A DNA stretch of 64,000 bases from Thermodesulfovibrio aggregans (GCF_001514535.1 NZ_BCNO01000002.1:1-64000), one strand, 5' to 3'; counted from the first letter of the stretch, positions 4,565 through 43,720 are shown. Notes: generated by a model from the letters alone, not told the origin. Made by a program: numbers and translations.

Positions 4565-4608
4565 TGGGCGATGCAGGGATTGAACCTGCGACCTCTTCCG
4601 TGTGAAGG
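4565..4608 (-). repeat. Displaced tRNA-Val 3' half, left attachment site
   Basis: Read on the minus strand this is an anticodon loop, anticodon 3' stem, variable loop, complete T arm (GCAGG/CCTGC, perfectly paired) and 3' acceptor strand ATCGCCC plus A. There is no 5' half, so it cannot be a working tRNA. It differs from the intact gene at 43649-43720 mainly in the T arm, as expected if this is the original host 3' half displaced by integration. Confidence 0.75.
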
Positions 4609-4678
4609 CGAACTTAAAACAAAAAATTGGCTTAAATACAGGGTTTCCTAAATGCAAAAAAATGTAATTTTTTACATT

Positions 4679-4698
4679 TTTATCACAATTTTATCACA
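4679..4698 (+). repeat. Putative integrase arm-type site, left end
   Basis: TTTATCACAATTTTATCACA is identical to 43581-43600 and contains two TTATCACA half-units ten bases apart. It begins 71 bp inside the left core. A small AT-rich hairpin (4658-4681) sits directly before it. The rest of the 4609-4909 gap shows no gene, only AT-rich leader before kpsC. Confidence 0.5.
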
Positions 4699-4909
4699 GT
4701 GAATTAAAGTTCACTAAATTAAAATTTATTCATTGTTCCAAAGTTCCAAAGATAAATTTTTTTTCATACATTTTATTTTTGTTTTTTTATGCCATTGACG
4801 TGGATTCCATTGATTTGTAAAAAATAAAAAGTCTTATTGAAAATTATCCTTCGAAAAGCTGAATGTATATAAATTGAATCAGCATGAATAAAATAGGTAA
4901 AATCTTGAA

Positions 4910-6949
4910 ATGTATCTTACTTTTTCTAAAGAAATAAAAAATATTCCATTCATTGATTCTTTCCTTGACAAAAAGGTCGTTTATTACTCAAAAAATATCC
5001 TTCCTTCAGAAATTGAAGGAGTTATTGGATGGGGACAGAAGAAAACTGCTGAAAAAGCAAGAAAATTTGCTCAAAAATACAATATTCCATACATCTCGCT
5101 TGAGGATGGTTTTATATGTTCCTATGGACTAAGAGTTAAGGGCTGTCCTCCTCTTTCCCTTATTGTAGACCCTGTAGGAATATACTATGATGCAACCAGA
5201 CCTTCATTGATAGAAAACTTAATAAACAGAGGAGAATTTAATAATAAATTGTTAAACGAAGCTGAAAAGGCATTAAAACTTCTACTTCAATACAATATTA
5301 GCAAATTTAACTATCAACCAAATGCAGATATTTCGTCATTGAAAGGAAGAAGAAAGAGAAGAGTACTGTTAATTGATCAGACTTTTAATGACCTTTCTGT
5401 TTTATTAGGTATGGCTGATAAAAAAACTTTTTTAAATATGTTTAATGATGCTTTAATGGAAAACCCTGATGCTGATATATATGTTAAAATCCACCCTGAT
5501 GTCTTATGTGGGAAAAAGAAAGGCTACCTCAGTGACATAGTTATTGAAAAAGAAAATGTTTATCTTATAACCCAGGATGTGAATCCGATTTCACTTTTAA
5601 AATTCTTTGATAAAGTATACACTGTCAGTTCCCAAATGGGATTTGAAGCTTTAATATTAGGTAAAAATGTTATATGTTATGGCATGCCCTTTTATGCAGG
5701 ATGGGGACTAACGGAGGACAAAATCGAATGTCCAAGAAGAACTAAGAAAGCTGAATTGATTGAAATTTTTTATGCAGCTTACATTGCCTACTGTATATAT
5801 ATAAATCCAGTTACAGGAAAAAAAGGAACAATATTTGATGTAATAAATTTTATTCTCAAACAAAAAGAGATGGCTGAAAAAATTGGTAAATTTAATTATT
5901 ACTGTGTAGATTTTCATTTGGCAAGGAAAAAATTTATCAAACCCTATCTTAAAACTGAGAAAAACAATGTCTATTTTGTCGAATCTAAATCACTAAGCGA
6001 TATTGTCCTTGCTAAAAACAGTGTTTTGGTTGTTTGGGGAAGTAAAGGAAGAAGAAATTTATTTGAAAAACTAAAGAAAGATACCCCTGTTTACACATTA
6101 GAAGATGGTTTTATTCGCTCAGTAGGTCTTGGCTCAGAGTTCATTCCTCCCATGAGCATAGTGATTGATAAACGTGGAATCTACTATGACCCAACTGAAG
6201 AAAGTGAGCTTGAATACATTCTTAACAACTATGAGTTTAACGAAGAAGAAATAAGTAAAGCTGAAATGATAAGAAAGCTTATCGTTGAGAATAATGTCAC
6301 TAAGTATAATGTAGAAATTTTGAAACCCTTGGTGAGACCTTCACAGACAAAAAAAATAATTCTCATACCAGGACAGGTGGAAGATGACGAAGCCGTTATT
6401 TTAGGTGGAGAAAATATTAAGAGTAACCTTGAACTTTTAGAGACCGTAAGGATTAAAAATCCTGATAGTTTCATAATTTACAAGCCCCATCCAGATGTAT
6501 TGTCAAAAAATAGAAGAGGCGATAAAGCCTTTAAAAAGATAAGAGAACTCTCTGACCATATTGAAACAGATGCTAATATCATAAGTTGCATAGCTATTTC
6601 AGATGAAATTCATACTTTAACTTCTCTTTCTGGTTTTGATGCACTGATTAGGGGTAAAAAGGTATTTACTTATGGAGCAGCTTTTTACGGAGGATGGGGA
6701 TTAACGCAAGATGAATTAAATTTGCCAAGAAGAAAGAGAAAACTTAATTTATACCAACTTATAGCTGGAGTTTTATTGATCTATCCTGTTTACTATGATT
6801 GGAAACTAAAAGGATTTGTCGATTGTGAGGCTGTAATTAATAGAATAATTGAGGAAAGAACAAATATTAATTTAAAAATTAAAAGCAAACTTCCAAAAAT
6901 TTTTAAAAAAATTGTAAACTATTTCAATTTTCTAACAAGGAATATATAA
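4910..6949 (+). CDS. kpsC: Capsule polysaccharide export protein KpsC (beta-Kdo transferase)
   Basis: The 679-aa protein is an internal duplication. Each half carries the same blocks: LEDGF at residue 64 and again near 400, GIYYD after it, a KIHPD/YKPHPD motif, and YGMPFYAGWGL or YGAAFYGGWGL near its end. This two-domain layout is that of KpsC, which adds the alternating beta-Kdo linker on a phosphatidylglycerol lipid anchor for group 2-type capsules in the cytoplasm. It lies four bases before kpsS, the usual partner. No clear ribosome-binding site is visible before the ATG. KpsC and KpsS are on the opposite strand to the export operon kpsMTED about 20 kb away but inside the same island. Confidence 0.9.
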   Translation: MYLTFSKEIKNIPFIDSFLDKKVVYYSKNILPSEIEGVIGWGQKKTAEKARKFAQKYNIPYISLEDGFICSYGLRVKGCPPLSLIVDPVGIYYDATRPSLIENLINRGEFNNKLLNEAEKALKLLLQYNISKFNYQPNADISSLKGRRKRRVLLIDQTFNDLSVLLGMADKKTFLNMFNDALMENPDADIYVKIHPDVLCGKKKGYLSDIVIEKENVYLITQDVNPISLLKFFDKVYTVSSQMGFEALILGKNVICYGMPFYAGWGLTEDKIECPRRTKKAELIEIFYAAYIAYCIYINPVTGKKGTIFDVINFILKQKEMAEKIGKFNYYCVDFHLARKKFIKPYLKTEKNNVYFVESKSLSDIVLAKNSVLVVWGSKGRRNLFEKLKKDTPVYTLEDGFIRSVGLGSEFIPPMSIVIDKRGIYYDPTEESELEYILNNYEFNEEEISKAEMIRKLIVENNVTKYNVEILKPLVRPSQTKKIILIPGQVEDDEAVILGGENIKSNLELLETVRIKNPDSFIIYKPHPDVLSKNRRGDKAFKKIRELSDHIETDANIISCIAISDEIHTLTSLSGFDALIRGKKVFTYGAAFYGGWGLTQDELNLPRRKRKLNLYQLIAGVLLIYPVYYDWKLKGFVDCEAVINRIIEERTNINLKIKSKLPKIFKKIVNYFNFLTRNI

Positions 6950-6953
6950 ATAA

Positions 6954-8210
6954 GTGATAACAGAGATAAGAGAGGAAGTACTTATTTATAATAATTACCT
7001 CCTACTTCAAGGTCCTAAAGGATTTTTCTTCTATAAGATCGCTAAATTTTTGAAAACACTTGGTAAAAGAGTTTATAAAATTAATTTTAATGGTGGAGAC
7101 TTAATAACTTTCCCTATTTTTAGCAATATTTATAACTACAGAGGTAAGATAGAAAATTTTGAAAGTTATCTAAAAGATTTCATTTTCTCAAAGGATATAG
7201 AAGTAATACTTCTATATGGTGACTATAAACCATATCACAAGATAGCTGTTAATTTATGTAAAAAATTAAATATTCCAATTTATGTATTTGAAGAGGGATA
7301 TGTTCGTCCTTTTTATATAACTCTTCAAAAAAATGGCATAAACGGCTGGAGTTCACTCCCCCAAAATCCTGAATTTTATAAAAGTCTTCCCGATATTAAA
7401 ATACCTGAACCTCTACCAGTTAATTTCAAATATCTAAAAAGAGTAACTTGCTGTGTATATCATTATTTTTTCTTAGAATTTTTCCGCTGGTATTTTCCTC
7501 ATTATGCGCACTGTAAAAAATACTTCCCCTATATACCTTGGCTTTTTAAATATTTCAGGGGTCTTGTAAGAAAGGTTATTTATAAATCCACTGAAAAGAA
7601 GTTTCTTGAATTATTTACAACTAAACTTAAATATAAATATTTTCTCATCCCTCTTCAGGTTCGTAATGACACACAGATTACAATTCACAGTAAGTATGCC
7701 TCAATAGAAGATTTTATTACTGAAGTGATGGAGTCCTTCGCAAAAAATAGTAAAGATGACTATTATCTTGTTTTTAAGCATCATCCTGAAGACAGAGGAT
7801 TTAAAAACTATAAAAAACATATAACTAAGGTCTCACAGAGATTAGGTTTAGAGCGAAAAGTATTTTATGTGCACGACTTACATTTACCCACTTTAATAAA
7901 AGGAAGCATCGGTGTTATAGTTGTTAATAGCACTGTAGGATTACAAGCACTATATCATAATAGACCAGTAAAAGTCATGGGAAAAGCTATTTATGACATG
8001 CCTGGTTTAACATTTCAAGGGAGTCTTGATAAATTTTGGCAAAATCCGGGCAAGATTGACAGAAAACTTTTTGAGAAATTTAGAAGCTATGTGATTAAAA
8101 CAACACAGCTTAATGGAAGTTTCTATGGAAGATTTCCTTTTGAGAAAGAAATTCTATCTTCAATCAGTTTAAAAACTATATCAACAGATTCCTCTAAACT
8201 CAATAGATGA
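6954..8210 (+). CDS. kpsS: Capsule polysaccharide export protein KpsS-like (Kdo transferase)
   Basis: This 418-aa protein has the KpsS-type N-terminal block LLLQGPKGFFFYKIAKFL, then VFEEGYVRPFYIT, FKHHPEDRG and VVNSTVGLQALYH, all hallmarks of the family that starts the Kdo linker on the lipid acceptor. Start is GTG, four bases after kpsC stops, so translation is probably coupled. The last 29 codons overlap the 3' end of cysC on the other strand (88 bp), so this C-terminal tail may be an acquired extension. No KdsA/KdsB or KpsF gene is in the window, so CMP-Kdo must come from elsewhere. Confidence 0.85.
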   Translation: MITEIREEVLIYNNYLLLQGPKGFFFYKIAKFLKTLGKRVYKINFNGGDLITFPIFSNIYNYRGKIENFESYLKDFIFSKDIEVILLYGDYKPYHKIAVNLCKKLNIPIYVFEEGYVRPFYITLQKNGINGWSSLPQNPEFYKSLPDIKIPEPLPVNFKYLKRVTCCVYHYFFLEFFRWYFPHYAHCKKYFPYIPWLFKYFRGLVRKVIYKSTEKKFLELFTTKLKYKYFLIPLQVRNDTQITIHSKYASIEDFITEVMESFAKNSKDDYYLVFKHHPEDRGFKNYKKHITKVSQRLGLERKVFYVHDLHLPTLIKGSIGVIVVNSTVGLQALYHNRPVKVMGKAIYDMPGLTFQGSLDKFWQNPGKIDRKLFEKFRSYVIKTTQLNGSFYGRFPFEKEILSSISLKTISTDSSKLNR

Positions 8211-8734
8211 GTATCAAGCACTAAATCTGGCGCTTCTGGTTCTTCATACGAAGCAGAGACTCCTGTGTATTCCTTTATTTCGCCAGCTCTTGCCTTCTTA
8301 TACATTCCCTTTGGATCTCTCATCTCGCATACTTCAACAGGGCATCTACAGTATATCTCGAGAAAATCTCTCTCTCCTATTATTTTTTTTATTTTTTCTC
8401 TGTGCTCCTTTAAAGGCGAGACAAAGGCTGCTATAACTACTATTCCTGCATCAACGAAAAGCTTTATCACTTCTGCAATTCTTCGCAAATTTTCATCTCT
8501 ATCTCCCTTTGAAAAACCTAAATCAGAACAAAGTCCATGTCTTATGTTGTCTCCATCAAAAGTGTAAGTTCTTATGCCTCTTTCATACAGTTTTTTCTCC
8601 AATGCGTGAGCAATAGTTGATTTACCAGAACTTGGAAGCCCTGTAAACCAAATTGCGATGCTTTTATGTCCATTGAGTATATTTCTCATCTGTCTTGTTA
8701 CTTCAGGTTTATGCCAGACTATATTATTATTCAT
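8123..8734 (-). CDS. cysC: Adenylylsulfate (APS) kinase
   Basis: The 203-aa protein has P-loop GLPSSGKST at 32-40, then FDGDNIRHGLCSDLGFS and DRDENLRRIAEV, the classic APS kinase signature. It phosphorylates APS to PAPS, the universal sulfate donor. In this setting it is the last gene of the minus-strand rml/glycosyltransferase set, starting in a 4-bp ATGA overlap with the upstream glycosyltransferase. The island also encodes a sulfotransferase at 20547-21320, so the likely role is feeding PAPS to polysaccharide sulfation, not assimilatory sulfate reduction (inference). Its 3' end overlaps kpsS convergently. Confidence 0.93.
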   Translation of the reverse strand: MNNNIVWHKPEVTRQMRNILNGHKSIAIWFTGLPSSGKSTIAHALEKKLYERGIRTYTFDGDNIRHGLCSDLGFSKGDRDENLRRIAEVIKLFVDAGIVVIAAFVSPLKEHREKIKKIIGERDFLEIYCRCPVEVCEMRDPKGMYKKARAGEIKEYTGVSASYEEPEAPDLVLDTHLLSLEESVDIVFKLIEDRISFSKGNLP

Positions 8735-9726
8735 TCAAGCCTCCGAATCAGATTTTCTTTATAGATTTTTTCTGCAAATTCTCTAAGAGTCCTCAATTTT
8801 TCTAATGAATTAAAATACAATTTTAATCTATAAGAGGATTCCTCAGCAAGTTTTAAAATGCTTTTTATCCATATTTCTTTAACATTTGAGACTAAAATAC
8901 CATCATTTTCATTAGATATTATTTTTCTGTAGCAACTCTCCTGCGAATAAACTCCAACCGCACCACAAGCCACTATCTCAAAAAACTTTGTATAGTTTCT
9001 TGCAAGATTAAATTTTTTAGCTAATACAGGAACTAAACCTATATGGCGTGTTTCTTTTAAGAGAAATTTTTTATAGAGCTTCCATTTCATCGGATGAACT
9101 ACTATAGCTCCTTTTAAATTTTTGAATTTATCATAAACTTCTTTATCTCCCACAAATTCAAAAATTATTTTTTCATTCTCACTTAAGATAGCTTTTACAA
9201 TGTCATAAAGCCAATTGATCTCCTGTGTATGTGAAGCTGTGCCGTGGTAGAAAACTTTTATATATTTTTCTCTATTCTCTAAAGACCAATTATTAAAAAT
9301 TGGATAGGGAGGAATAATTGAGGGGTTTAAGTATTGATACTTTTCAGCTAAAAAATCTGTGGAGACAAAAAAATCAGCTCCATTCTTAATTAACCACCCT
9401 TTCCATCTATAAGCTTTTAAATAGATTTTTTTTACATACCTCAGGGGAAGACCTCTCCAGCTACTCAAATCAAAGAGGTCATCATCCATAAAATATATAA
9501 TTTTTTTTATTGATTTTCTATTTTTCTCAATAAAATTAATCCAATTTTTGCTTAAGTAGCGAACAAAAATTATAGTAATTTGTATTTTCGGTAGCTCTTT
9601 GGGAGGAAAATTTAATAATTTAACTCTATCTTCAAGTCCTGATATTTTTAAGGCTGGTAAAATATAATATTCTGTTGAAGGATTGGAACGCTCTTCAACA
9701 ATCCATATGTCCTTTTTAAAATCCAT
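8731..9726 (-). CDS. Glycosyltransferase, GT-B type
   Basis: The 331-aa protein carries a Rossmann-like C-terminal half with IKVFYHGTASHTQEINWL, a motif style seen in GT4/GT1-type enzymes, and YTKFFEIVACGAVGVYS, which matches the E-x7-E nucleotide-sugar site region. The N-terminal half has IIYFMDDDLFDL, a block also seen as YEIDDLIFDL in the 1260-aa glycosyltransferase of this island, so the two share a domain. It overlaps the upstream GT2 gene by 11 bp and cysC by 4 bp. The sugar transferred cannot be read from sequence. Confidence 0.75.
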   Translation of the reverse strand: MDFKKDIWIVEERSNPSTEYYILPALKISGLEDRVKLLNFPPKELPKIQITIIFVRYLSKNWINFIEKNRKSIKKIIYFMDDDLFDLSSWRGLPLRYVKKIYLKAYRWKGWLIKNGADFFVSTDFLAEKYQYLNPSIIPPYPIFNNWSLENREKYIKVFYHGTASHTQEINWLYDIVKAILSENEKIIFEFVGDKEVYDKFKNLKGAIVVHPMKWKLYKKFLLKETRHIGLVPVLAKKFNLARNYTKFFEIVACGAVGVYSQESCYRKIISNENDGILVSNVKEIWIKSILKLAEESSYRLKLYFNSLEKLRTLREFAEKIYKENLIRRLE

Positions 9727-11824
9727 TTTTGTTCCAGGGTTTTTTTATTTTTGGAAATGAATTCAAATTAAAATCGGGCTTATTATAGTTTAGGTTTGGG
9801 TTATAAAATGGGTCATATTCAATATATTTTTGCCACTTTTTTCTTATAAAATCAGCTTCTCTTTTTGCTCGTTTTTGAGATTCCGGTGAAAGATCTTTTC
9901 CTCTACTTAGGGACTCATAATGATAAAGTTCAACATAGGGAGTGAATACAATCCTGTATCCTGCCTCTCTAAGTTTTAAACAGTAATCAACATCATTGAA
10001 ACTAACTGGAAGATTCACCTCATCAAACCCACCGATTTTAATAAAAAGATTTTTCCATGTCATCATGCATGCAGCTGTAACTGCTGAATATTCTTGTTGT
10101 AGTATTGTCCTGTCCATATATCCATTTTCTTCTTTATTAAGGTACTTAAATGCGTGGTCAGCACAACCACCAGTCCCTATCACTACCCCTGCATGTTGAA
10201 TCTTACCATTGGGATAGTAAAGTTTTGCACCAACAGCACCTACATTAGGTTGCTGAAGACAGCCAAGCATTATCTCAAGCCATTGAGAGGTTATAACCTC
10301 TGTATCATTGTTCAAAAATAGTAAAACTTCACCTTGAGCTTTGCTTACTGCAAAATTATTAATTGCTGAAAAATTATAGGATTTATCATATCTAAAAACT
10401 CTGATTTTTGCATTATTTGTCAAACTCTTTAAGTATTCAATTGCCTCTAAGTCATTGCTCTGATTATCAACTAATAAAATTTCATAGTTATCATATGTAG
10501 TTTTTCTAATTATGCTTTCAATACATTTTTTAAGAATGGCAAGTTGATTTTTAGTAGGTATTATGATGCTTATGAGAAGATTATTTTTAACATGATAGAT
10601 AACTTTATAATTTTTAAAATCAATTTTTTCTACTGTTGCAGATACTTGCATTCTTTCAAGATGTTCTCTTACTGGATTATAATCCGAGGAAAGATCATTA
10701 TTAGTTATACTTATCAAGGGTAGATGAAAAAGCACAGCGGGGATATGCTTTATTTTGGAAGTTTTTTCTGCTATTTTAAGCAGTAAACTATGCAAATTCC
10801 ATGATATTTCTGCCATATCTAAGCCTTCAATTTTTGATAATACTTCAGCTTTAACAGCAAATGTAGAATCAATATAATTTGTTGCCCTTAAATATTCTAA
10901 AGAAAAATCTGGCTTAAAACATGGATTTACTCTTTCATTTTCAGCTGTTATGTAATCATGATCAGTATAAATTAAATCTGCGTTAGATATCCTTGCCTCC
11001 TTTGCTATCCGGTATAATGCATGGGAAGATAAAACTGTGCCAGATTTTAAAAATAAAAAATATGTCTTTTTTGTATTGCCTTGAGTTAAGAATTCATTAA
11101 ACTGCATATCCATCCTGTTTTTTAAGATATTAACAGTGAATGATTTATATATTTGATCCTCAAGAGACTGAATAGTTTTTTCTAACTCTTCCTCATCTTG
11201 ATTATGGATTAAAATATTAAAGACCACATCAAGATTAGATTTTTTGATATCTTTTTTTATCCTCTTGGTGTCTTCGTCGGTTAATCTATCAAAAGATTCT
11301 GTCCATTTTGAATAATCTAAGGTTGAATCACAATCTCTTATTTTATTTGCTAATTCATAGGCTCGCTTTAGATTGAAAAAAGGGGTGTAATAAGATAATC
11401 CCAAAATTTTTCTCTTATGTTTAAAACGTTTTTGAAAGAAAAAAAGAACTCTTTTCAGCATCCTATATATTCTTTCAATATTTCTCACAGGCTTAAGAGT
11501 AAAATCTTCAATAATTTCAAACTCACCAATTGAATTCATCGGTTCAAAGATTATTTCTTTTGTTTTAGAGGGAATTTTAATAAGCTCAAGCATAGTTCCC
11601 TTGCAATTAACAGGGAACACATATTTTTCATCGTTAATGATTAATTTTGCCTTTAAGTTCTTCCCTCTTCTTTTTAAAGCTCCTTTGATTAGACACCATC
11701 CTTTGGGTAAATAACCATCTCTGTCAGCCACAAGTTTAATTCTTGCGGGTAAGTTTTTGACTATGCAAGTTCTATTTTCCTTGTCAAAAAATATATTTTC
11801 TTCAAGAATTATCCTTAACTTCAT
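9716..11824 (-). CDS. Glycosyltransferase with GT2 domains, 702 aa
   Basis: The C-terminal 300 residues form a canonical GT2 domain: LISIIIPTKNQLAILKKCI, ILLVDNQSNDLEA, LLFLNNDTEV (DxD-type metal site) and GGFDE followed by FNDVDYCLKLREAGY. The middle segment (about residues 195-400) is a second, degenerate GT2-like domain with DLIYTDHDYI and FKPDFSLEYL, as in rhamnan/teichuronic-type chain enzymes. The first 130 residues look like a beta-sandwich accessory domain. Position right after rmlA suggests, but does not prove, use of dTDP-rhamnose. It is probably cytoplasmic; no membrane helix is evident. Confidence 0.8.
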   Translation of the reverse strand: MKLRIILEENIFFDKENRTCIVKNLPARIKLVADRDGYLPKGWCLIKGALKRRGKNLKAKLIINDEKYVFPVNCKGTMLELIKIPSKTKEIIFEPMNSIGEFEIIEDFTLKPVRNIERIYRMLKRVLFFFQKRFKHKRKILGLSYYTPFFNLKRAYELANKIRDCDSTLDYSKWTESFDRLTDEDTKRIKKDIKKSNLDVVFNILIHNQDEEELEKTIQSLEDQIYKSFTVNILKNRMDMQFNEFLTQGNTKKTYFLFLKSGTVLSSHALYRIAKEARISNADLIYTDHDYITAENERVNPCFKPDFSLEYLRATNYIDSTFAVKAEVLSKIEGLDMAEISWNLHSLLLKIAEKTSKIKHIPAVLFHLPLISITNNDLSSDYNPVREHLERMQVSATVEKIDFKNYKVIYHVKNNLLISIIIPTKNQLAILKKCIESIIRKTTYDNYEILLVDNQSNDLEAIEYLKSLTNNAKIRVFRYDKSYNFSAINNFAVSKAQGEVLLFLNNDTEVITSQWLEIMLGCLQQPNVGAVGAKLYYPNGKIQHAGVVIGTGGCADHAFKYLNKEENGYMDRTILQQEYSAVTAACMMTWKNLFIKIGGFDEVNLPVSFNDVDYCLKLREAGYRIVFTPYVELYHYESLSRGKDLSPESQKRAKREADFIRKKWQKYIEYDPFYNPNLNYNKPDFNLNSFPKIKKPWNKNGF

Positions 11825-11841: not shown

Positions 11842-12714
11842 TCAATCTATCTCCTCAGCTATTTTAACAAGATATTTCCCGTATCCACTGTTTTTGAGCG
11901 GTTTTGCTATTTCAAGAAGTTGCTCCTTTGTAATGTAACCAAGTCTATATACTATCTCTTCAATACAAGCTATTTTAAAACTCTGCCTCTTTTCAATGAT
12001 TCTTACAAACTCTGATGCCTGATGTAAAGAGTCAAAAGTGCCTGCATCAATCCATGTATAACCTCTGCCTAATTTTTTTACTTTCAATCGTCCTTGTTCA
12101 AGATAAAGTCTGTTTAAGTCGGTTATCTCAAGCTCTCCTCTATGAGATGGTTTAATTGTTTTTGCAAGTTTTGGTGCGTCACCATCGTAAAGATATAATC
12201 CAGTTACTGCATAAGTTGATTTTGGTTTTGCTGGCTTTTCTTCAAGAGAGAGAACTTTTCCTTCTTTGTCAAACTCAACAACTCCAAATCTTTGAGGGTC
12301 AGAAACAGGATAGGCAAACACTGTAGCTCCATCATGTTCGGCTAAAGCCTCTTTAAGTAATTGATGAAGTCCGTGTCCAAAGAAGATGTTATCACCTAAG
12401 ATAACCCATACTCTATCTTCTCCTATGAAATCCTCCCCTAATATTAATGCCTCAGCAATTCCATTTGCCTTAGCTTGAGTCTTATAGAAAAACTTAATAC
12501 CCAAATGAGAGCCATCGCCAAGTAATTCCTCAAATCTTTTAATATCCCTTGGGGTTGATATTATTAAAATATCTTTACAACCAGCAAGTAAAAGAATAGA
12601 CAGAGGATAGTAAATCATTGGTTTATCATATATAGCAAGTAGGTGTTTATTAATTGGTAATGTTGCCGGATAAAGCCTTGTGCCAGAGCCTCCCGCAAGT
12701 ATTATTCCTTTCAT
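11842..12714 (-). CDS. rmlA: Glucose-1-phosphate thymidylyltransferase
   Basis: This 290-aa enzyme has the nucleotidyltransferase signature LAGGSGTRLYPAT at 7-19, then NKHLLAIYDKPMIYYPLS, ILGDNIFFG (metal-binding Asp) and GYTWIDAGTFDSL. It condenses dTTP and glucose-1-phosphate to dTDP-glucose, step 1 of dTDP-L-rhamnose synthesis. It follows rmlD by 2 bp. Length and motifs are normal for RmlA. All four rml genes are present in the order C-B-D-A. Confidence 0.95.
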   Translation of the reverse strand: MKGIILAGGSGTRLYPATLPINKHLLAIYDKPMIYYPLSILLLAGCKDILIISTPRDIKRFEELLGDGSHLGIKFFYKTQAKANGIAEALILGEDFIGEDRVWVILGDNIFFGHGLHQLLKEALAEHDGATVFAYPVSDPQRFGVVEFDKEGKVLSLEEKPAKPKSTYAVTGLYLYDGDAPKLAKTIKPSHRGELEITDLNRLYLEQGRLKVKKLGRGYTWIDAGTFDSLHQASEFVRIIEKRQSFKIACIEEIVYRLGYITKEQLLEIAKPLKNSGYGKYLVKIAEEID

Positions 12715-12716
12715 TT

Positions 12717-34785: not shown

Positions 34786-34813
34786 AAAGATGTCGGGACG
34801 TCCCGACATCTTT
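34786..34813. repeat. GC-rich palindrome 4, 28 bp perfect
   Basis: Arms AAAGATGTCGGGAC mirror exactly around GACGTC. The inner CGGGACGTCCCG is identical to palindrome 1 at 29596-29607. It is in noncoding DNA 260 bp before hicA. Confidence 0.75.
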
Positions 34814-35328: not shown

Positions 35329-35331
35329 AAG

Positions 35332-35541: not shown

Positions 35542-36488
35542 TATACTAAAGCCTCGATAAGACGTATTATTTGTGAAAATTCTCAATAAAACTGATCCTC
35601 CCCTAATATTAAATGATTTATAAAACAGAGTAAAGTTGATCAGCATAAAGGATTGAGTAATGATAAATTTCAAATTAAGCTATTTATTTTCATATTTTTT
35701 TACTCATGAAAAAATGAATAACAATTTTGAGTCCTTTATAATTCCAATACAATTCTGTGGAATCGCATCATTTAAACCTTGAAATGTATTTAAAAATTTA
35801 TAATTAGATCAGTTTTGGTAATTTTTGGCTGAATAGGAAATTAATAAACATAAGTAATTTAAAAGATTTTTCTAAATTCTTCTGATTTTTATTAAAATTT
35901 TGAGACCCTATAACTTTACTGTTTTAAATAATAATTTTTTTATTTATATTTTAAGTTTTGAAATTTTTAAAACTATTCAAAAAATTTCTCTGGAAATTTT
36001 TTGAATTTAGCAATGTTATTTTATTTCTAATTTAAATAAATATAATTTAATTAATTAACTATTGTTTAAATATATATTTTCTTTTTTTACCTTAATTTTT
36101 TGTGTTTTTAATTTTAGCAATGTTATTTTTTTTCTGGTTATATCATGAAAAAATCTAAAAATATCAATCACTTTACAATAAAAATCAATCAAAAACAGGA
36201 CAACTTATAAAAAAATAGGACAAGTCTTATAAAAGTCAGGACACTTTCAATAAAAATCAGGACATTTCATTCAAAAATCAGGATAAATCCAAAAGCTCTT
36301 TACTTTGGAGTTATGTAATCTGAAATTAAAAGTTCTACTTTCTTACTGTTTAATTCAATAAATAATCTGATACGTTAATTTTCTAAGTTTAAAAAAACTA
36401 TTTCCCTCTCTCTACCCCTATCTGCTTGAATAATTTTCAATTTCATGAGGATTTTTATTTTTTAATAAAAACAATATGGAGGGTTAAA
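35542..36488. other. AT-rich origin-like region, no gene
   Basis: These 947 bases hold no credible ORF and very long A/T runs. A 22-bp direct repeat (TTTAGCAATGTTATTTT core) occurs at 36006 and 36113. Iterons lie at 36190-36285, a copy of ATTTCATGAGG at 36440-36450, and the T-rich motif at 36451-36470. The arrangement, AT-rich stretch plus iterons upstream of an initiator gene, is that of a plasmid origin (inference). Confidence 0.55.
36190..36285 (+). repeat. Iteron array, five units of about 21 bp
   Basis: The sequence AGGAC (last copy AGGAT) recurs at 36197, 36217, 36238, 36259 and 36280, spacing 20-21-21-21. The consensus is AAAAATCAGGACAWTT. Two upstream ATCAATCA units (36163, 36184), also 21 bp apart, may be degenerate members. 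A 21-bp phase is two helical turns, as in iterons bound by winged-helix Rep proteins. The array lies about 200 bp before the RepA-like gene. Confidence 0.7.
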
Positions 36489-37838
36489 ATGAAAGAAACA
36501 AAAAATATTGAGTCTGAAGAGAGAATTCTGAATGAAAAAAATGACAAACCAGAACAAATCACCGAGAAGGATTTTTATGAAGATTATGTAGATTTTGCCG
36601 ATCTCTTTGCAAATGTCTCTATTCATGATAATGTTAAAAATAGTGAGCAAGAAATTGAACCTGAAAACACAAAACAAAAATACGACAAAATTTATAAAAG
36701 AGAGACTTTGAAACAACCTGAAACAAAAAAGAGGGAAAAGGCATCAGATGATTCTGTAGAGGAAATCTGTATAGAGAGTAATATTAATAAATATCTCGTA
36801 TACAACAAAGTATACTGGAGACACATACAATTTTGGTTTGGCTTAATGAAGTTGTTTAACACTCAAAGACAACAGACAATAACTTTCAGCTGTAGAAAAA
36901 TTATCTCGCTACTAAGATGGGGGAAAGATAAAAGTTCATACAAGAAAATTGAAGACTCAATAAATTTTTTTGCAAGAGAGATAGAGTTCAAAAATTATTG
37001 CTTCTGGTCTGAAAAGGATAAAAAGAAAAAGAAAATAAAAAGTATCAAGTTCAAGCCAATTGATATAGTTAAAGAAAAAAATTACTTCCAATTAACACTA
37101 AATTCTTACCTATACAAAAACCTGAAGTCAGGGATAGTAGTTTGGAAAAAAATCAATTGGAATCAGCCAAAAATAATACAGAAATTCCTATTTGTTCTTG
37201 ATACGATAATGATACCCTATCATAAAAGGGTTAAAAATCAGATTCTTTCAATCAAGAACATTGATTTAAACAAATACTTCACAAAAAGTGAAATAATGGG
37301 AATAAAGAGATACTATAAATATTTTAAAGAAAATCTATCTGGAACATATTACGAAATTTTAGATTTAAAAATAAACAGAGAAAAGCTCTCTTTGGAAGTT
37401 TACACTAACTTTTATACTCAAAAGACAGACTATTATGTTGAAAAATATGGAGACTTAATTGATACAACAGAGAAGCTTATTGCATGTTTTTTCACGAACA
37501 AGAACAAAAATCCCTCCCTTGAGAGAAAATTAAGCCAAAACGATTTTAAATATCTTATATCCTTCCTTAATAAATATGGTTTAGCAAGAACCACGTTTCT
37601 CATATATTACATTTCTCAGGAGATAGAAACAGCAGTCTTAAAAGATTTTGGAAAATTTAGTCTGATAAAACTATTCAAGAGGTTTAAGTCATCAGCTATG
37701 AGAATGTTTTTGCAATATGATGGTAAGAAAATAGAGAAAAAAGGGTTCAATGTAAATGAATACGGTGTGATTTTTGCAGAATTTTTTGTAAAAAAGAGGA
37801 AATTCCCAGAGATTGTTGAGAAAATTTTCAAGAAATGA
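36489..37838 (+). CDS. Putative plasmid replication initiator (RepA/RPA-like)
   Basis: The 449-aa protein has an acidic, disordered N-terminal 100 residues. A winged-helix-like segment follows: NKVYWRHIQFWFGLMKLF, then TITFSCRKIISLLRWGKD and SSYKKIEDSINFFAREIEF, which follows the pattern of replication initiator protein A (an R/Y-K-I...L helix followed by a wing). A Lys-rich C-terminal half completes it. The upstream iterons support the call. Start is at 36489 because GGAGGG stands seven bases before; the in-frame ATG at 36426 has no such site. The assignment rests partly on context. Confidence 0.55.
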   Translation: MKETKNIESEERILNEKNDKPEQITEKDFYEDYVDFADLFANVSIHDNVKNSEQEIEPENTKQKYDKIYKRETLKQPETKKREKASDDSVEEICIESNINKYLVYNKVYWRHIQFWFGLMKLFNTQRQQTITFSCRKIISLLRWGKDKSSYKKIEDSINFFAREIEFKNYCFWSEKDKKKKKIKSIKFKPIDIVKEKNYFQLTLNSYLYKNLKSGIVVWKKINWNQPKIIQKFLFVLDTIMIPYHKRVKNQILSIKNIDLNKYFTKSEIMGIKRYYKYFKENLSGTYYEILDLKINREKLSLEVYTNFYTQKTDYYVEKYGDLIDTTEKLIACFFTNKNKNPSLERKLSQNDFKYLISFLNKYGLARTTFLIYYISQEIETAVLKDFGKFSLIKLFKRFKSSAMRMFLQYDGKKIEKKGFNVNEYGVIFAEFFVKKRKFPEIVEKIFKK

Positions 37839-38334
37839 TCAATCTAATTCGGATGAATCTGATTTGCTCAAAATACGAACATAATAAATCACCTAAAGAA
37901 AGAAATGATAAAAGTGCAGGTAAGAAATCTCTCCATCAAAATACCTTGAAATGGATATGAGGGAGTTTGAAGTTGGAAAAATAATAATTTTATGAATAAT
38001 AGCATATGCTATAGAATCAATTTTTTAATGTTACCTAATCCTACAAAATTGACAGATCTGAACTTTCCATACTTTTTTGGGGCTTCATGAAATTTCATGA
38101 AAAGGTAGTGGCAATTATTGTGAGATTTTTTAACTAATTTATTTGCAGGAAGAAATAATTGATAAAACTGATAAGGTTTGGTCTTTCATTATTTAAAAAA
38201 GAAAATTCAAAATTTTCAACTTTTTATTAAAAATTTTCTATGTTTTTTATTTTTTTATTGTAAGGAGAAAATTTAGTGAAAAATTTATTTGGGTATAATT
38301 TAATCGGAAAATAAAAAATAGAAGGAGGTTTACA
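37839..38334. other. Noncoding gap before the topoisomerase-like gene
   Basis: No gene is seen in 496 bases. Two palindromes are present: ATAGCATATGCTAT (37999-38012) and TTCATGAAATTTCATGAA (38084-38101), both operator-like. A T-rich motif occurs at 38242-38260, and a TATAAT box at 38294-38299 sits about 35 bp before the topoisomerase ATG. Confidence 0.5.
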
Positions 38335-40104
38335 ATGCTTTTAAAAATTCCAGTTTTTAGACAGTTTACAGATTTAGAAGAACTAAAGAGATTCATACCT
38401 CCAAGTTTTAATCGTTCATTGGTAGTTGTGAAAGAGATTCTCGATAATGCATGTGATGAGGCTGAAAAGAAAGATTACATAGTTGAAGTTAGTTTAAAAG
38501 ATATAACTCTCACTGTTAAAAACAAAGGTATCTTTACAGAAGACCAGCTACAGGTTATTTCAGACTTTTCTGAAAGGATAACAAGCAAATACCTCAAAAA
38601 ATCATATCAAAGAGGAGCTATTGGACAGGGGCTTATGATTGCAATAATGCTCTCAGATATAGATAACCATCCAGTAATAATTAACTCCAATCAAAAACAG
38701 TTCAAGATTGAGCAAGACAGATTTTCCGAATTTTCTAAATTTTTGAAAAAAGTTGCAAAACCAGTTAAAGCGTTCTGGTATGGTAAAAATGCAATATCTG
38801 AGAGAATTGAGGTTCTTAGCTATAAAAAGATTTCTCTTTCAAGTAATGAAACCATAGAGATCATAGCAAGCAGAGAGCTTAAAGATAATGTTCTATGCGT
38901 GAATGGAAGTTTAGTTCATTCGATCTTTTATAGCTCCGATGAGGATGGTTATGTTGTAAATTTAACATCCTTTCTTAATGAGCCTCAGAAAAAGAAGCCA
39001 ATTAAATGCCTTTTTATATATCACTCTCCGAACATTCGTTATGCTGACAAAAATAAAGAAAGAGTTAAAATACCATACAAAATTTCAAGATACATAAAAA
39101 ACTTCTACAAAAACATCTCCATAAAATCAGCTGCTGGTGAAAAGGACTGGATTCTAATAAAAGAAAAGTGTCAAAAAATAGCTGAAAAAAAGAATATCAC
39201 CAAAGAAAATATTTTAAAAGAATATGGAAAATCAATGAAACCCTGGAGATATGTTTTTCTTCTACTTTGCAAAAATATAATTGATGAACTTAATTCAAAA
39301 TACGGTGCTGTAACCATAAGACAGGTTTATTATCAGCTTGTAAGTAAAGGATACATAAGCAATGCTGAGAACAGCTATTCAAATTTAGTGGCTCAGCTTA
39401 CCGATGCAAGAGAGATGGGGATAATTGATTATTTTGCTTTTGAAGATCGTTCACGATATCTTTTAAAGCCAAAAACTATCTCAATAAAAACAAATCCAAA
39501 AGATATAGTTAAAGATGCCGTAATATCTTCACTTAAGCCACCAGAGATTGATATATGGGAAAATCAAGACTACCACTTAGAGCTTTGGATTGAAAAAGAT
39601 GCTTTACTTAAGCTTTTCAAAAAAATTGCAGATAAGCATCAACTTAATCTTTATCCAAGCAGGGGATACTCTTCACTTACCAAAATTCATGAAGCAAAAG
39701 AGAGATTTAAAGAACAGATAAGAAAAGGCAAAGAATGCGTCATTCTATACTTTGGAGACCTTGACCCTTCAGGATGGAACATTTACGAAGTGATACAGAA
39801 AAAGTTTTCAGACTTACCCGTAACAATTGAAAGAATAGCAGTAAACCCAGACCAGACAGAAGGGCTTATACCCATGCCTTTAAAAGAAAAAGACACGAGA
39901 ATAAATGGATTTCTGGAAGAACTTAAACTTACAGAATGCTACGAACTTGATGCTCTTGAACCAGAGCTAATTTTATCTTTAGCTGAAAATGCAATAGATA
40001 AATATTTTGATAAAAACTTAATTCCTGATGATTCTGAGTGGTTCAAAAAGTATCAAGAAATAACTGAAAAAATAATAAAACTTGTAAATGAGATTGAAGC
40101 ATGA
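38335..40104 (+). CDS. Single-chain type IIB topoisomerase-like protein (Topo VIII-like)
   Basis: In 589 aa it fuses a GHKL ATPase domain to a Spo11/TopoVI-A-like part. The ATPase part has EILDNACDEAE at 34-44 and GAIGQGL at 94-100; the usual DxGxG box is KNKG at 62-65, so an Asp is missing. The A part has TIRQVYYQLVSKG with candidate catalytic Tyr332/333, then a Toprim domain with E420 in LWIEKDA and FGDLDPSG (D475, D477). This order B-A in one polypeptide is that described for topoisomerase VIII of plasmids and integrated elements. The transducer domain looks reduced. The start has AGAAGGAGG upstream. It probably relieves supercoiling or decatenates the element. Confidence 0.75.
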   Translation: MLLKIPVFRQFTDLEELKRFIPPSFNRSLVVVKEILDNACDEAEKKDYIVEVSLKDITLTVKNKGIFTEDQLQVISDFSERITSKYLKKSYQRGAIGQGLMIAIMLSDIDNHPVIINSNQKQFKIEQDRFSEFSKFLKKVAKPVKAFWYGKNAISERIEVLSYKKISLSSNETIEIIASRELKDNVLCVNGSLVHSIFYSSDEDGYVVNLTSFLNEPQKKKPIKCLFIYHSPNIRYADKNKERVKIPYKISRYIKNFYKNISIKSAAGEKDWILIKEKCQKIAEKKNITKENILKEYGKSMKPWRYVFLLLCKNIIDELNSKYGAVTIRQVYYQLVSKGYISNAENSYSNLVAQLTDAREMGIIDYFAFEDRSRYLLKPKTISIKTNPKDIVKDAVISSLKPPEIDIWENQDYHLELWIEKDALLKLFKKIADKHQLNLYPSRGYSSLTKIHEAKERFKEQIRKGKECVILYFGDLDPSGWNIYEVIQKKFSDLPVTIERIAVNPDQTEGLIPMPLKEKDTRINGFLEELKLTECYELDALEPELILSLAENAIDKYFDKNLIPDDSEWFKKYQEITEKIIKLVNEIEA

Positions 40105-40167
40105 CATTTTTATCTTTTGAAATTTTATAAAGTTAGTTTAAAAAGTATGTCAAGCCATTTTCAGAAT

Positions 40168-40199
40168 ATAAAAATGCAGCGGCGCCGCTGCATTTTTAT
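40168..40199. repeat. GC-rich palindrome 5, 32 bp perfect; possible bidirectional terminator
   Basis: Arms ATAAAAATGCAGCGGC mirror exactly around GGCGCC. With its flanking A-run and T-run it could form a rho-independent terminator in both directions, 64 bp after the topoisomerase-like gene. It is also a member of the palindrome family, sharing its 18-bp core with 34669-34686. Confidence 0.7.
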
Positions 40200-40283
40200 C
40201 TTACTAAATATGACCTAAACACTTACAAAATCTCTTTTTTATGAAATTTTTATTTTTTTACTAAATTGAAATATTAAAATTTC

Positions 40284-40324
40284 TTGCGTTTTAACCATCT
40301 TTTAAGTATAATTATAATTATACT
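40284..40324 (+). promoter_or_regulatory. Promoter with overlapping 20-bp palindrome
   Basis: TTGCGT (40284-40289), a 17-bp spacer and TATAAT (40307-40312) form a sigma-70-like promoter, with expected start of RNA near 40319. A perfect palindrome AGTATAATTATAATTATACT (40305-40324) covers the -10 box and start point, a classic repressor position. The ATG at 40340 lacks a clear Shine-Dalgarno. Confidence 0.55.
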
Positions 40325-40339
40325 AAACTGGATTATACT

Positions 40340-41749
40340 ATGGGAGAATTGAAATTTATCAACAGAAAAAATGAATTAGAATCACTTAACAGATTATACT
40401 CTAAAGAAGGCTTTCAGTTCGTTCCCATATATGGAAGAAGAAGAGTTGGCAAAACAAGGCTAATTCAAGAGTTCATAAAGGACAAACCCGCTATATATTA
40501 TCTTGCTGATTCAGTTTCAGAGAGAGAACAACTCAAAAATTTAGGTAAAGAAGTCGGTGAGTTTTTCAGAGACCAGATACTCACTGAGGCTGGGTTTAAA
40601 GATTGGTATCAGCTTTTTAGATATTTGAAAGATAAATCAAAGGATAGATTAATACTGGTAATAGATGAATTCCCCTATCTTGTTAACTCTAATTCTGCCA
40701 TATCATCAATATTTCAAAAGGGTATAGACCAATATCTAAAAGAAACTCAGACATTTTTAATTCTTATGGGTTCAAGTATTGGTATGATGGAAAAGGAAGT
40801 CCTCCATTATAAAGCACCTCTTTATGGAAGAAGAACCGCTTCCTTAGAAATTAAGGAAATGAACATATCAGCCCTTTTTGAACTTTTTCCAAACAAAAAA
40901 ATCTCTGATATAGTAAAAATTTATTCTGTCTTTGGAACAATTCCCGCATATCTTGAAAAAATTGATACTAAAAAAGACATATTTTCAAACATAGAAGACC
41001 TTGTTTTAGATAAAAGCTCTTTTTTATACAACGAAGTAGAGTTTATCGTAAGAGAAGAATTAAGAGAGCCAAGAAACTACTTTGTAATTTTGAAGGCAAT
41101 TGCACAGGGAAAACACAAACTTTCAGAAATCATAAATGAAACAGGTTTTGAAAAAAGCATGGTGTCAAGATATCTTGATATACTTAAATCACTAAGATAT
41201 GTTAAGAAAGAAATTCCCATAACAGAGAAAAACCCTGAGAAAAGTAAATTAGGTTTGTATCGGATTTTTGATAGATATTTTAACTTTTGGTTTAAATTCA
41301 TCTTTCCAAACAGAAGATGGATAGAGATTGGAAGAGGAGATGTATTATTGAATTACATAAAAGAGCAGTTTGAACATCATGTATCCTCTGTTTTCGAAGA
41401 TGCCTGTATAGAAATATGTGAAATATTAATGCAGAAAGGGCTAATAAGGTTTAGCCAAATTGGTAAATGGTGGACAAAAGACAGTGAAATAGACATAGTT
41501 GCATTAGATGATGAAACTAAGACGGTTTATTTCGGAGAATGTAAGTGGAGTAACAAAAAAGTAGGCGAAAATGTCTATCATGAGCTCGTTGAAAAATCAA
41601 AAAAAATCTCTTACTATGGTAAAAGGCAGAAAAACAAATACATTTTATTTAGCAAAAATGGATTTACTGATAGGGTCAAAGATTTGGCAAAGAGGGATGG
41701 TGTAATTTTAATAGACTGTAGCGGTTCCTCTATTTTATCTTTAGAGTAA
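40340..41749 (+). CDS. Archaeal-type AAA ATPase with DUF234-like C-terminus
   Basis: The 469-aa protein begins FINRKNELESLNRLY, has P-loop GRRRVGKT at 32-39 and Walker B ILVIDEFPYL. A winged-helix segment follows near 245-285 (GFEKSMVSRYLDILKSLRYV), then a C-terminal restriction-endonuclease-fold piece DSEIDIVALDDETKTVYFGECKW, with the D-x-D...E-x-K pattern of PD-(D/E)XK domains. This is the DUF234/archaeal ATPase group, common in genomic islands, with unknown cellular role; a defence or stress-linked nuclease ATPase is one possibility. It is apparently expressed from its own repressible promoter. Confidence 0.8.
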   Translation: MGELKFINRKNELESLNRLYSKEGFQFVPIYGRRRVGKTRLIQEFIKDKPAIYYLADSVSEREQLKNLGKEVGEFFRDQILTEAGFKDWYQLFRYLKDKSKDRLILVIDEFPYLVNSNSAISSIFQKGIDQYLKETQTFLILMGSSIGMMEKEVLHYKAPLYGRRTASLEIKEMNISALFELFPNKKISDIVKIYSVFGTIPAYLEKIDTKKDIFSNIEDLVLDKSSFLYNEVEFIVREELREPRNYFVILKAIAQGKHKLSEIINETGFEKSMVSRYLDILKSLRYVKKEIPITEKNPEKSKLGLYRIFDRYFNFWFKFIFPNRRWIEIGRGDVLLNYIKEQFEHHVSSVFEDACIEICEILMQKGLIRFSQIGKWWTKDSEIDIVALDDETKTVYFGECKWSNKKVGENVYHELVEKSKKISYYGKRQKNKYILFSKNGFTDRVKDLAKRDGVILIDCSGSSILSLE

Positions 41750-42186
41750 ACTGTCATTAAACATCCTTAATTTTCTAAAATTTTTAATTATAATTCAATA
41801 TGTTATATCAAACTTTTTCGCAACAATGAAAATTTCCTTCATACGATTAAAATTAAATTTTATACATTCAATAACTTAATTTCTATTTATTTAAAAAATG
41901 AGCAAAGAGTGGCTTAATGATTTATGGTAGATGCTGCTGCGCCGCAGCATCTACGTTGGAAGGATTTCTATAAAATAATACTAAAAAAATAAAAAAGATT
42001 ATCTATTACTTCATTTTCAATTTTATTAAAACAATCATGAGAAATTCTATCGCCTGTTATATATGAAAACAGAGAAAACGTCCTTTTATCAAAAAAAATT
42101 ATCACTTAACATAATCAAATTTTTTTAAAGCCTAAAAAAATAATTTTCAGTCCAACTTTTAGAGAGATTTTTATTTTTTATATGAG
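41750..42186. other. Noncoding gap before the excisionase-like gene, with palindrome 6
   Basis: I see no gene in these 437 bases. An inverted repeat at 41927-41954 belongs to the palindrome family. The T-rich motif ATTTTTATTTTTTA (42167-42180) lies directly before the HTH gene, and a reverse-orientation copy is at 41981-41997. Confidence 0.5.
41927..41954. repeat. GC-rich palindrome 6, 28 bp
   Basis: Arms GTAGATGCTGC and GCAGCATCTAC (11 bp) flank TGCGCC, so only the centre departs from the GGCGCC found in two other members. It is in noncoding DNA about 180 bp after the ATPase gene, and there is no T-run, so a terminator role is doubtful. Confidence 0.7.
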
Positions 42187-42501
42187 ATGGATAATTCACA
42201 AGAAAGGAAATATAAGGTTAAGTGGAATATAAAAAGAAATGAATCAGAGGTGGCTGAGAATAGTTTAAGGTTGCTGAAGATTTCTGAAGTTTCTAAGATT
42301 CTTGGGATATCAAAAAGAACAGTTTATAACTATGTGAAAGAAGGAAAGCTTCCCTGTGTGAAGCTTTCAAATAGGGCATTGAGGTTTAAAGAGACAGATT
42401 TAATGAAGCTTATCTCTGAAAGAACAATCACATATGAGCCAAGTGAAAAAACAGATTTTATAGCCAAGAGAGTGCTTGAAAAAATCTTAAAGAGGGGGTA
42501 A
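42187..42501 (+). CDS. MerR-like HTH protein, probable excisionase/control protein
   Basis: The 104-aa protein has an N-terminal basic tail and a central HTH_17-type winged helix: LLKISEVSKILGISKRTVYN, then YVKEGKLPCVKLSNRALRFK, the pattern of excisionases and SinR/Xis-like factors. It lies 67 bp before the integrase gene on the same strand, the standard place for a directionality factor. No Shine-Dalgarno precedes the ATG; the T-rich motif ends six bases before it, so the mRNA could be leaderless or the start could be wrong. Confidence 0.7.
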   Translation: MDNSQERKYKVKWNIKRNESEVAENSLRLLKISEVSKILGISKRTVYNYVKEGKLPCVKLSNRALRFKETDLMKLISERTITYEPSEKTDFIAKRVLEKILKRG

Positions 42502-42504
42502 ATT

Positions 42505-42555
42505 ATGTTAAGGACAAAGGTCTTTGACAAGGGAAACCCTGTATTTGAGCCATAG
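42505..42555 (+). CDS. Possible 16-aa ORF between Xis-like and integrase genes
   Basis: The ORF MLRTKVFDKGNPVFEP has a strong ribosome-binding site, AGAGGGGG, six bases before its ATG. It begins 4 bp after the HTH gene and ends 13 bp before the integrase ATG. A leader peptide or translational coupler is possible. No homologue is known to me; coding status rests on position and the ribosome-binding site. Confidence 0.35.
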   Translation: MLRTKVFDKGNPVFEP

Positions 42556-42568
42556 TTAGGAGGTAACT

Positions 42569-43621
42569 ATGGGCTTATACAGGAGAGGAAAAATTTATTG
42601 GGCTTCTCTAACTCACAACGGTGAACAGATTAGATTTTCTACAAAGTGCAGAGATAAAAAGGAAGCTGAGGCTGTTTATGCCAAGATACTTCTTGAGCTT
42701 AAAATTGGCAAGGTAGCAGTAATCCAACCAGAGAAAAAGGAAAAGATAACATTCAATCAGTTTTTTGTTGAGCAGTATCTGCCTTTCTGTAAAAAACAAA
42801 GTTCATATAATACAAAACGATACTCACTAAATATGATTCCTGAATGGTTTAAGTCAACTCCTTTGATGGATTTCAATACGAGACATATTGACCTGTTTGT
42901 TAGCGAACTTGCAACAACAAGAAAACCAGCTACTGTTAACAAACTCCTTCACATTGTGAAGCACGCATTTAGAAAGGCTCTTGATTGGGAACTGATAGAT
43001 GAGGCTACCTTTAAAAAGATTGACAAGGTTAAACCACTTAAGGGAGAGACAAAAAGGCTCAGATATCTTAATCAAGAGGAAATCCAAAGGCTTTTATCAC
43101 ACTGTGATAATTATCTTTATCCAATCGTTTTTACCGCACTTAATACAGGAATGCGGAGAGGAGAGATACTTAATCTTAAATGGGAGAACATTGACCTGAA
43201 AAATGGACTAATACTTCTTGAAAAAACCAAAAACGGTGAGCGAAGAGAGATCCCGATGAATGAGAGCTTAAAGACACTGTTTAGACAACTTTACACACAA
43301 AGAAGGCTTGACACTGATTACGTATTCATCAATCCAAAAACAGGAACAAGACTAACTGAATTTAAAAGAAGCTTTGCCACTGCACTTAAGAAAGCTGGCA
43401 TAAGGGATTTTACTTTTCACGATTTAAGACATACTTTTGCAAGTCAGCTTGTGATGGCTGGAATTGACCTGAGAACCGTTCAGGAGCTACTTGGACACAA
43501 GACAATTACAATGACTCTTAGATATGCTCATCTATCAGAAGCTCATAAAAGAGAAGCTGTAAGGACATTGGAGAACAAACTTTATCACAATTTTATCACA
43601 ATTTCATTGCAAGCTAAATAG
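42569..43621 (+). CDS. int: Tyrosine site-specific integrase
   Basis: The 350-aa recombinase has an arm-binding-type N-terminus (YRRGKIYWASLTHNGEQIRFS), a SAM-like core-binding domain (about 60-155) and the catalytic set R196 (TGMRRGEI), H284 and R287 (HDLRHTFA), H310 (LLGHKT) and Y319 (RYAHLS). It lies 51 bp from the core at 43673, pointing at tRNA-Val, the usual arrangement for tRNA-targeting elements. The start is backed by TAGGAGG. Its final codons (LYHNFITIS) contain the 20-bp arm-type repeat, so coding and recombination sites overlap. It looks complete and potentially active. Confidence 0.93.
   Translation: MGLYRRGKIYWASLTHNGEQIRFSTKCRDKKEAEAVYAKILLELKIGKVAVIQPEKKEKITFNQFFVEQYLPFCKKQSSYNTKRYSLNMIPEWFKSTPLMDFNTRHIDLFVSELATTRKPATVNKLLHIVKHAFRKALDWELIDEATFKKIDKVKPLKGETKRLRYLNQEEIQRLLSHCDNYLYPIVFTALNTGMRRGEILNLKWENIDLKNGLILLEKTKNGERREIPMNESLKTLFRQLYTQRRLDTDYVFINPKTGTRLTEFKRSFATALKKAGIRDFTFHDLRHTFASQLVMAGIDLRTVQELLGHKTITMTLRYAHLSEAHKREAVRTLENKLYHNFITISLQAK
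43581..43600 (+). repeat. Putative integrase arm-type site, right end
   Basis: TTTATCACAATTTTATCACA is identical to 4679-4698, in the same orientation, and ends 73 bp before the right core. It lies within the 3' end of the integrase gene. Confidence 0.5.
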
Positions 43622-43648
43622 GCAGGCTAAAAAATCCTTAAAAATCAA

Positions 43649-43720
43649 TGGGCGATGAGGGATTTGAACCCACGACCTCTTCCGTGTGAAGGAAGCGCTC
43701 TCCCACTGAGCTAATCGCCC
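43649..43720 (-). tRNA. tRNA-Val (anticodon CAC), island integration target
   Basis: The 72-nt cloverleaf has acceptor GGGCGAT/ATCGCCC, D arm GCTC/GAGC, anticodon stem CTTCC/GGAAG with loop TTCACAC, and T arm GTGGG-TTCAAAT-CCCTC. The anticodon CAC reads GTG. CCA is not encoded. The T stem has one T-T mismatch, whereas the displaced half at 4565-4608 pairs perfectly. The 3' half therefore probably came from the island, the 5' half from the host. Confidence 0.93.

Follow-up and report, generated by a model that had tools for sequence, protein, structure and literature searches.

A candidate 39-kb integrative element in a tRNA-Val gene of Thermodesulfovibrio aggregans with a group 2-type capsule locus as cargo

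The island and its ends

The stretch of DNA analyzed here (the window) comprises 64,000 nucleotides of Thermodesulfovibrio aggregans, a thermophilic sulfate reducer of the Nitrospirota, and corresponds to the initial 64 kb of contig C2; the genome has 1,997,652 bp in three contigs. Between the genes mscL and copA it contains a capsule (kps) locus, a plasmid-like module, an integrase gene and a tRNA-Val gene (Table 1). The GC content of this region is 0.309, vs. 0.354 in its left and 0.370 in its right flank. It had been predicted to be a 39-kb genomic island inserted in tRNA-Val and holding the whole kps/rml/cysC gene set together with the plasmid-like module. In this work, tRNA genes were called with ARAGORN and Rfam, the partial tRNA copy was delimited by local alignment, and proteins were annotated by matches in Pfam, NCBIfam, PHROGs, PADLOC and PDB. 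Comparisons were made with 16 genomes of the genus Thermodesulfovibrio, among them Thermodesulfovibrio sp. N1 (G003) and UBA2600 (G004), and with 177 genomes of the order.

ARAGORN and Rfam called a single tRNA-Val(CAC), on the minus strand at the right end of the region, and neither of them called a tRNA at 4565. At the left end, local alignment revealed a directly oriented 46-bp tRNA fragment (alignment start about 4563/4564), the sequence of which is that of the 3′ part of the N1 tRNA-Val(CAC). Both copies contain the exact 20-bp core CGACCTCTTCCGTGTGAAGG, and about 5e-7 exact 20-mer matches with the tRNA would be expected by chance from base composition. The direct copies of the tRNA 3′ half in the original prediction were thus recovered as regards this core and about 10 identical bp of the acceptor end, but the T arm has diverged between them (GCAGG..CCTGC on the left, GTGGG..CCCTC on the right). 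No further tRNA fragment was reported between the two ends. Joining position 4608 to 43693 in silico generated an intact tRNA that ARAGORN recognized as tRNA-Val and that agrees with the N1 tRNA-Val(CAC) in 73/73 bases, and the reciprocal attP joint contained no tRNA. The integrase gene has an intact reading frame and points at the right tRNA copy, as had been proposed: the C-terminus of its product faces the tRNA 3′ end, and 26 bp separate both genes. A complete tRNA at one end, a directly oriented tRNA fragment at the other and an intact tyrosine integrase adjoining the island end are the features by which tRNA islands are recognized.

Further repeats were found next to the cores. The 20-bp sequence TTTATCACAATTTTATCACA, from one of the few 20-mer families repeated in the window, lies inward of both cores, at a distance of 70 bp on the left and 72 bp on the right. 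A second motif, GGAAACCCTGTATTTAAGCC, occurs inverted at 4629 and is present at 42532, upstream of the integrase gene. Two further tRNA fragments with a matching order of left-end sites were located on contig C24 of UBA2600, where GTGATAAAA repeats are followed by GGAAACC..ATTTAAGCCA (clear in one of the two) and then by the core. One of these fragments pairs with an integrase-flanked tRNA-Ala(CGC), bounding an element of 8.7 kb. Since the core is exact, the restored tRNA equals that of N1, the arm repeats are present and the left-end architecture recurs, the two ends are a true attL/attR pair. The excised circle would measure 39,084 bp (4609-43672 plus one core copy). Regarding the original prediction, its island was borne out, with ends now placed to the base and flanks that restore a real tRNA; judged from the sequence, this is a genuine integrase-made island with the entire capsule locus inside. 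The left flank following the tRNA, AGTAAAATC, was first taken as ancestral host sequence; it resembles the flanks behind other occupied tRNAs of the genus. Because of this likeness, an older element may have stood there.

Integrase relatives and the point of strand exchange

Relatives of the integrase were found in at least 10 genomes of the genus, adjoining tRNA-Ala (GGC, CGC), tRNA-Val (CAC, GAC and TAC, the last beside tRNA-Asp) and, once, tRNA-Arg. The cargo in their vicinity varies: the 8.7-kb element codes for a DUF3854 protein, and the copy in genome G015 has a type IV coupling protein nearby. In N1, tRNA-Val(CAC) has integrase genes on both sides, one of them degraded (L153:896-2736). 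No tRNA fragments were found in the stretches examined around three other integrase copies of the host genome.

A close counterpart lies at tRNA-Val(GAC) of UBA2600 (G004:C8:81600-90961; L009/L154), with an integrase 97% identical and module DNA 94% identical to those of the window. Unlike the island, no kps gene was present in the 83 kb examined there, and scanning these 83 kb for the core, the T arm and the arm repeats produced no match for an attL. The genes next to it, for another integrase, DruA, NurA and HerA-like proteins, are reminiscent of a defence island (L160:383-5135).

The diverged T arms allowed two positions of strand exchange to be compared, exchange in the anticodon arm probably being the one that took place. 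In this favoured reading, the left T arm would be the original host T arm. The D-loop of the window tRNA-Val matches those of N1 and G002 rather than that of G001, which favours an exchange in the anticodon arm. In the other possible reading, exchange would have taken place at the acceptor end and the right T arm would be that of the host; G001, the closest relative by copA (87%), shares its GTGGG T arm with the right copy. In UBA2600, the integrase adjoins a fully normal tRNA-Val(GAC), element-specific sequence beginning only past the tRNA end, and this arrangement is better accounted for by acceptor-end exchange.

Capsule cargo and plasmid-like module

Table 1. Positions of the attachment sites, arm repeats and genes of the island within the window.
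Feature	Position	Strand	Evidence or remark
attL: displaced 3′ part of original tRNA-Val(CAC) (acceptor end, T arm, part of anticodon arm)	4563-4608	-	Local alignment
20-bp attachment core, left copy	4589-4608	-	Exact match to 43673-43692
Left-end arm region	4609-4720	.	GGCTTAAATACAGGGTTTCC at 4629-4648, TTTATCACAATTTTATCACA at 4679-4698; repeats
kpsC, 3-deoxy-D-manno-oct-2-ulosonic acid (Kdo) transferase starting group 2 capsule linker	4910-6949	+	Pfam Capsule_synth 3.3e-89; PDB KpsC 6mgb 3e-104
kpsS	6954-8210	+	NCBIfam KpsS 2.1e-118, under curated cut-off
cysC, adenosine 5′-phosphosulfate (APS) kinase	8123-8734	-	Pfam 8.7e-66
Two glycosyltransferase genes	8731-9726, 9716-11824	-	Pfam, weakly for first
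rmlA, rmlD, rmlB, rmlC (dTDP-rhamnose)	11842-15102	-	Pfam
Broken insertion sequence (IS) junction: IS1634-type and N-terminal IS256-type transposase in one frame	15105-17379	-	Pfam; NCBIfam
GSCFA-family protein, FkbM methyltransferase, NosD-like repeat protein, sulfotransferase (20547-21320)	17512-21320	-	Pfam
Multi-domain glycosyltransferase, 1260 aa	21317-25099	-	Pfam
kpsD, kpsE, kpsT, kpsM, capsule export	25093-29348	-	Pfam; NCBIfam KpsE family 2.4e-97, KpsM 2.1e-51, both under curated cut-offs
DNA N6/N4 methyltransferase	30531-31967	-	Pfam 8e-40
UvrD-like helicase	32190-33662	+	Pfam; PHROGs
Rolling-circle replication initiator	33670-34473	-	Pfam REP_ORF2-G2P 1.3e-16; PHROGs replication initiation 6.6e-8
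Island part of module common with UBA2600	34778-43647	.	94% DNA identity; blastn of 34778-43762 vs. G004:C8
470-aa protein	36426-37838		No match in Pfam, NCBIfam, PHROGs, PADLOC
GHKL ATPase with topoisomerase-like C-terminal part	38335-40104	+	Pfam HATPase_c 4.5e-5; PHROGs topoisomerase 5.6e-59
ATPase_2/DUF234 ATPase	40340-41749	+	Pfam
Excisionase-like HTH_17 protein	42187-42501	+	Pfam; PHROGs excisionase 4.4e-12
Inverted near-copy (1 mismatch) of left motif 4629-4648	42532-42551	+	Upstream of int
Tyrosine integrase (int), intact frame, 350 aa	42569-43621	+	Pfam 3e-41; motifs RRGEI, HDLR, RYAH
Right-end arm repeat TTTATCACAATTTTATCACA	43581-43600	+	Exact copy of 4679-4698; within int 3′ end
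attR: regenerated, chimeric tRNA-Val(CAC)	43648-43721	-	ARAGORN/Rfam; core 43673-43692

KpsC, KpsS, KpsM, KpsT, KpsE and KpsD are all encoded in the island (Pfam, PDB), as is characteristic of group 2 loci with ATP-binding cassette (ABC)-dependent export and a Kdo linker. The cysC gene codes for the sole APS kinase of the host genome, and APS kinase genes are present in 6/16 genomes of the genus. An APS kinase gene of G015 has a flippase gene on one side and a sulfotransferase gene on the other (L188:15-3092). This recurrence of the APS kinase and sulfotransferase pairing supports a sulfated polysaccharide; the capsule product is probably sulfated, and sulfated polysaccharides might be a recurring trait of the genus. 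The frame in which the two transposases are fused (683 aa) has a direct repeat of about 97 bp on both sides, and it is interpreted as a rearrangement scar inside the capsule locus.

The presence of a replication initiator within the element agrees with an integrated plasmid. Integrated plasmids are known that carry Topo VIII-like fused type IIB topoisomerases, and the island resembles them in that replication genes and an integrase gene accompany that for a GHKL and topoisomerase protein. This protein is possibly Topo VIII-like, an identity that here comes from a single PHROGs match: PDB gave no relative, and a fold prediction of the 589-aa protein alone was unusable (predicted local distance difference test score of 41). 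In UBA2600 the reading frame of the corresponding gene is split. Within the genus, the 470-aa protein is confined to the host genome and UBA2600. No relaxase or type IV secretion genes were recognized among the scanned island proteins (Pfam, PHROGs), so that the island does not qualify as an integrative and conjugative element. A known virus was also considered as the identity of the island, and was disfavoured by a comparison with viral contigs, which yielded integrases of no more than distant relationship (28-38% identity) and nothing related to Rep or to the topoisomerase-like protein.

Origin and mobility of the element

Based on these results, the interval 4609-43672 plus one core copy is very probably a site-specific integrative element, most likely an integrated plasmid, with a horizontally acquired capsule locus as cargo. 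The tyrosine integrase would have recombined the 20-bp core, located in the anticodon arm of tRNA-Val(CAC). At the right end (attR), the gene would have been made whole by the tRNA 3′ half that the element brought with it, and the original 3′ half of the host would have been moved away to the mscL side (attL). As cargo, the element would carry a probably sulfated group 2-type capsule locus (KpsC/S, KpsMTED) bringing its own supply of rhamnose and of 3′-phosphoadenosine 5′-phosphosulfate. The integrase and the excisionase (Xis) could excise the circle, after which the cell would have a functional tRNA-Val and no capsule. The element may still be excised, and it may replicate autonomously and be transferred.

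Several observations weigh against this interpretation. The genes mscL and copA and the anticodon arm of tRNA-Val(CAC) were located in the 16 genomes of the genus, and they stood together in none, so that the exact empty site is absent from the genomes compared. In relatives there is no tRNA-Val or mscL between copA and a phospholipase D (PLD) gene. For the UBA2600 copy, no attL that would delimit the element was found in 83 kb. The island is without a recognized conjugation gene among the scanned proteins. Finally, the T-arm difference could also be read as an acceptor-end exchange, which the UBA2600 tRNA fits. As to the empty site, gene order around copA, mscL and tRNA-Val(CAC) is rearranged between species, and it was not observed because the order of neighbours differs in this way; the relatives lacking tRNA-Val and mscL indicate that the locus has undergone other rearrangements too. 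In G015 the order is copA, the PLD gene, a 257-aa gene and a 706-aa gene; copA thus adjoins the PLD gene in G015 and is near it in UBA2600, and in the window the island lies between them. In the host, an IS with a 9-bp duplication (AGAACGCAG) interrupts the PLD gene, the N-terminal half of which occupies 292-1179 of the window; the C-terminal half, with 257- and 703-aa genes, is found at C1:635.7-640.6 kb. This split, together with the G015 order, indicates that the island, tRNA-Val, mscL and two or three more genes lie between former neighbours, and the copA-PLD adjacency without an island in G015 would lend partial, indirect support to insertion. No relative carried kps genes at this place and none had an unrelated tRNA beside mscL, the two findings that the original prediction had named as contrary to it.

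In the vicinity, positions 1-292 of the window, where contig C2 breaks, correspond to the end of the IS256-like IS that disrupts the PLD gene, with about 15 copies in the genome at 98-100% identity. Positions 185-2440 hold the truncated PLD-nuclease gene and an AAA_14/DUF4143 ATPase gene, which is a single 416-aa frame in N1 and two frames here (1192-1701 and 1679-2440), probably through a frameshift.

Among the alternatives, a stepwise origin is the most probable and is a possibility we hold only tentatively: a smaller integrative plasmid (the module at 34.8-43.6 kb) would have arrived first, and the capsule genes would have entered later, within or next to it, through ISs or homologous recombination. 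They would then sit between the att sites without the integrase having brought them in. The homology with UBA2600 ends at 34778, family elements elsewhere are small (8.7 kb), and two broken, fused transposases at 15.3-17.4 kb mark a rearrangement in the capsule region. In addition, in G012, which has the only other kps locus of the order, kpsC and kpsM diverge from each other across about 30 bp, and here they occupy opposite ends of the capsule block. However, the left att end directly adjoins kpsC with intact arm sites, and no tRNA fragment was reported where the module meets the capsule genes. In the circle, kpsC and kpsM would flank the plasmid module. Such a circular permutation is compatible with a plasmid cointegrate that closed at the broken IS, but the order is explained equally well if polysaccharide genes were shuffled in the ordinary way. 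On the G012 kps contig no integrase relative was found, the scanned genes including a PurF-like amidotransferase and an M29 peptidase.

Somewhat less probable, and on balance unlikely, is that the ends are correct and the element is now immobile. The 3′ region of the integrase gene is rearranged or broken by stops in relatives from several genomes, but in the window the integrase, Xis, core and arm sites are all intact, and the 97% identical integrase at another tRNA in UBA2600 suggests movement since divergence. More ambitious, and in our estimation improbable, is the proposal that the capsule locus belongs to a rolling-circle plasmid-like element alternating between integrated and circular forms, whose cycle would govern capsule expression, copy number and loss; in it, the plasmid would have opened a divergent kpsM/kpsC junction and the circle would have been closed at the broken ISs. 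That the partial tRNA is a chance or unrelated relic beside an ordinary chromosomal capsule locus agrees with the failure to recover a true empty site among relatives, but is hardly credible given the negligible number of chance matches expected, the exact restoration of a real tRNA, the matching arm sites and the lack of kps in 175/177 genomes of the order.

The integrative element favoured here is of a familiar mobile-island type, and capsule loci on tRNA islands are well documented in Escherichia coli, where the pheV islands PAI V536, PAI-UTI89-pheV and PAI-CFT073-pheV carry the group 2 loci K15, K1 and K2, respectively (PMC7545054). As in these, a kps locus resides on an island at a tRNA gene; unlike them, it is found in another phylum, at a tRNA-Val with an anticodon-arm core, and with a Rep/topoisomerase module instead of virulence genes. 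Variation between strains is a feature of the E. coli pheV islands, and no other capsule was found at this tRNA-Val among relatives. The suggestion that surface type is a swappable cassette is borne out only in part, as no relative carried a different capsule at this tRNA. In the Islander scheme (PMC4383910, citing Williams 2002), class A comprises tRNA islands with an anticodon-centred att site; the element agrees with that outline in that its tyrosine integrase adjoins a regenerated tRNA, its opposite end holds the displaced 3′ fragment and its core lies at the anticodon arm, and differs from it in that the T arms have diverged and the identity block stops short of the tRNA 3′ end. Searches of the open-licence literature on Thermodesulfovibrio with genomic islands or capsules turned up no title dealing with such an island.

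For the genus, these results identify a widespread integrase family that targets mainly tRNA-Val and tRNA-Ala genes and has varied cargo. For the order, in which KpsC is otherwise nearly absent (2/16 genomes of the genus and 2/177 of the order), they extend the theme of capsules on tRNA islands, best known in E. coli. For T. aggregans, they provide precise ends, a circle junction and an acapsular derivative that can be tested for what would be a mobile, probably sulfated capsule in a thermophile.

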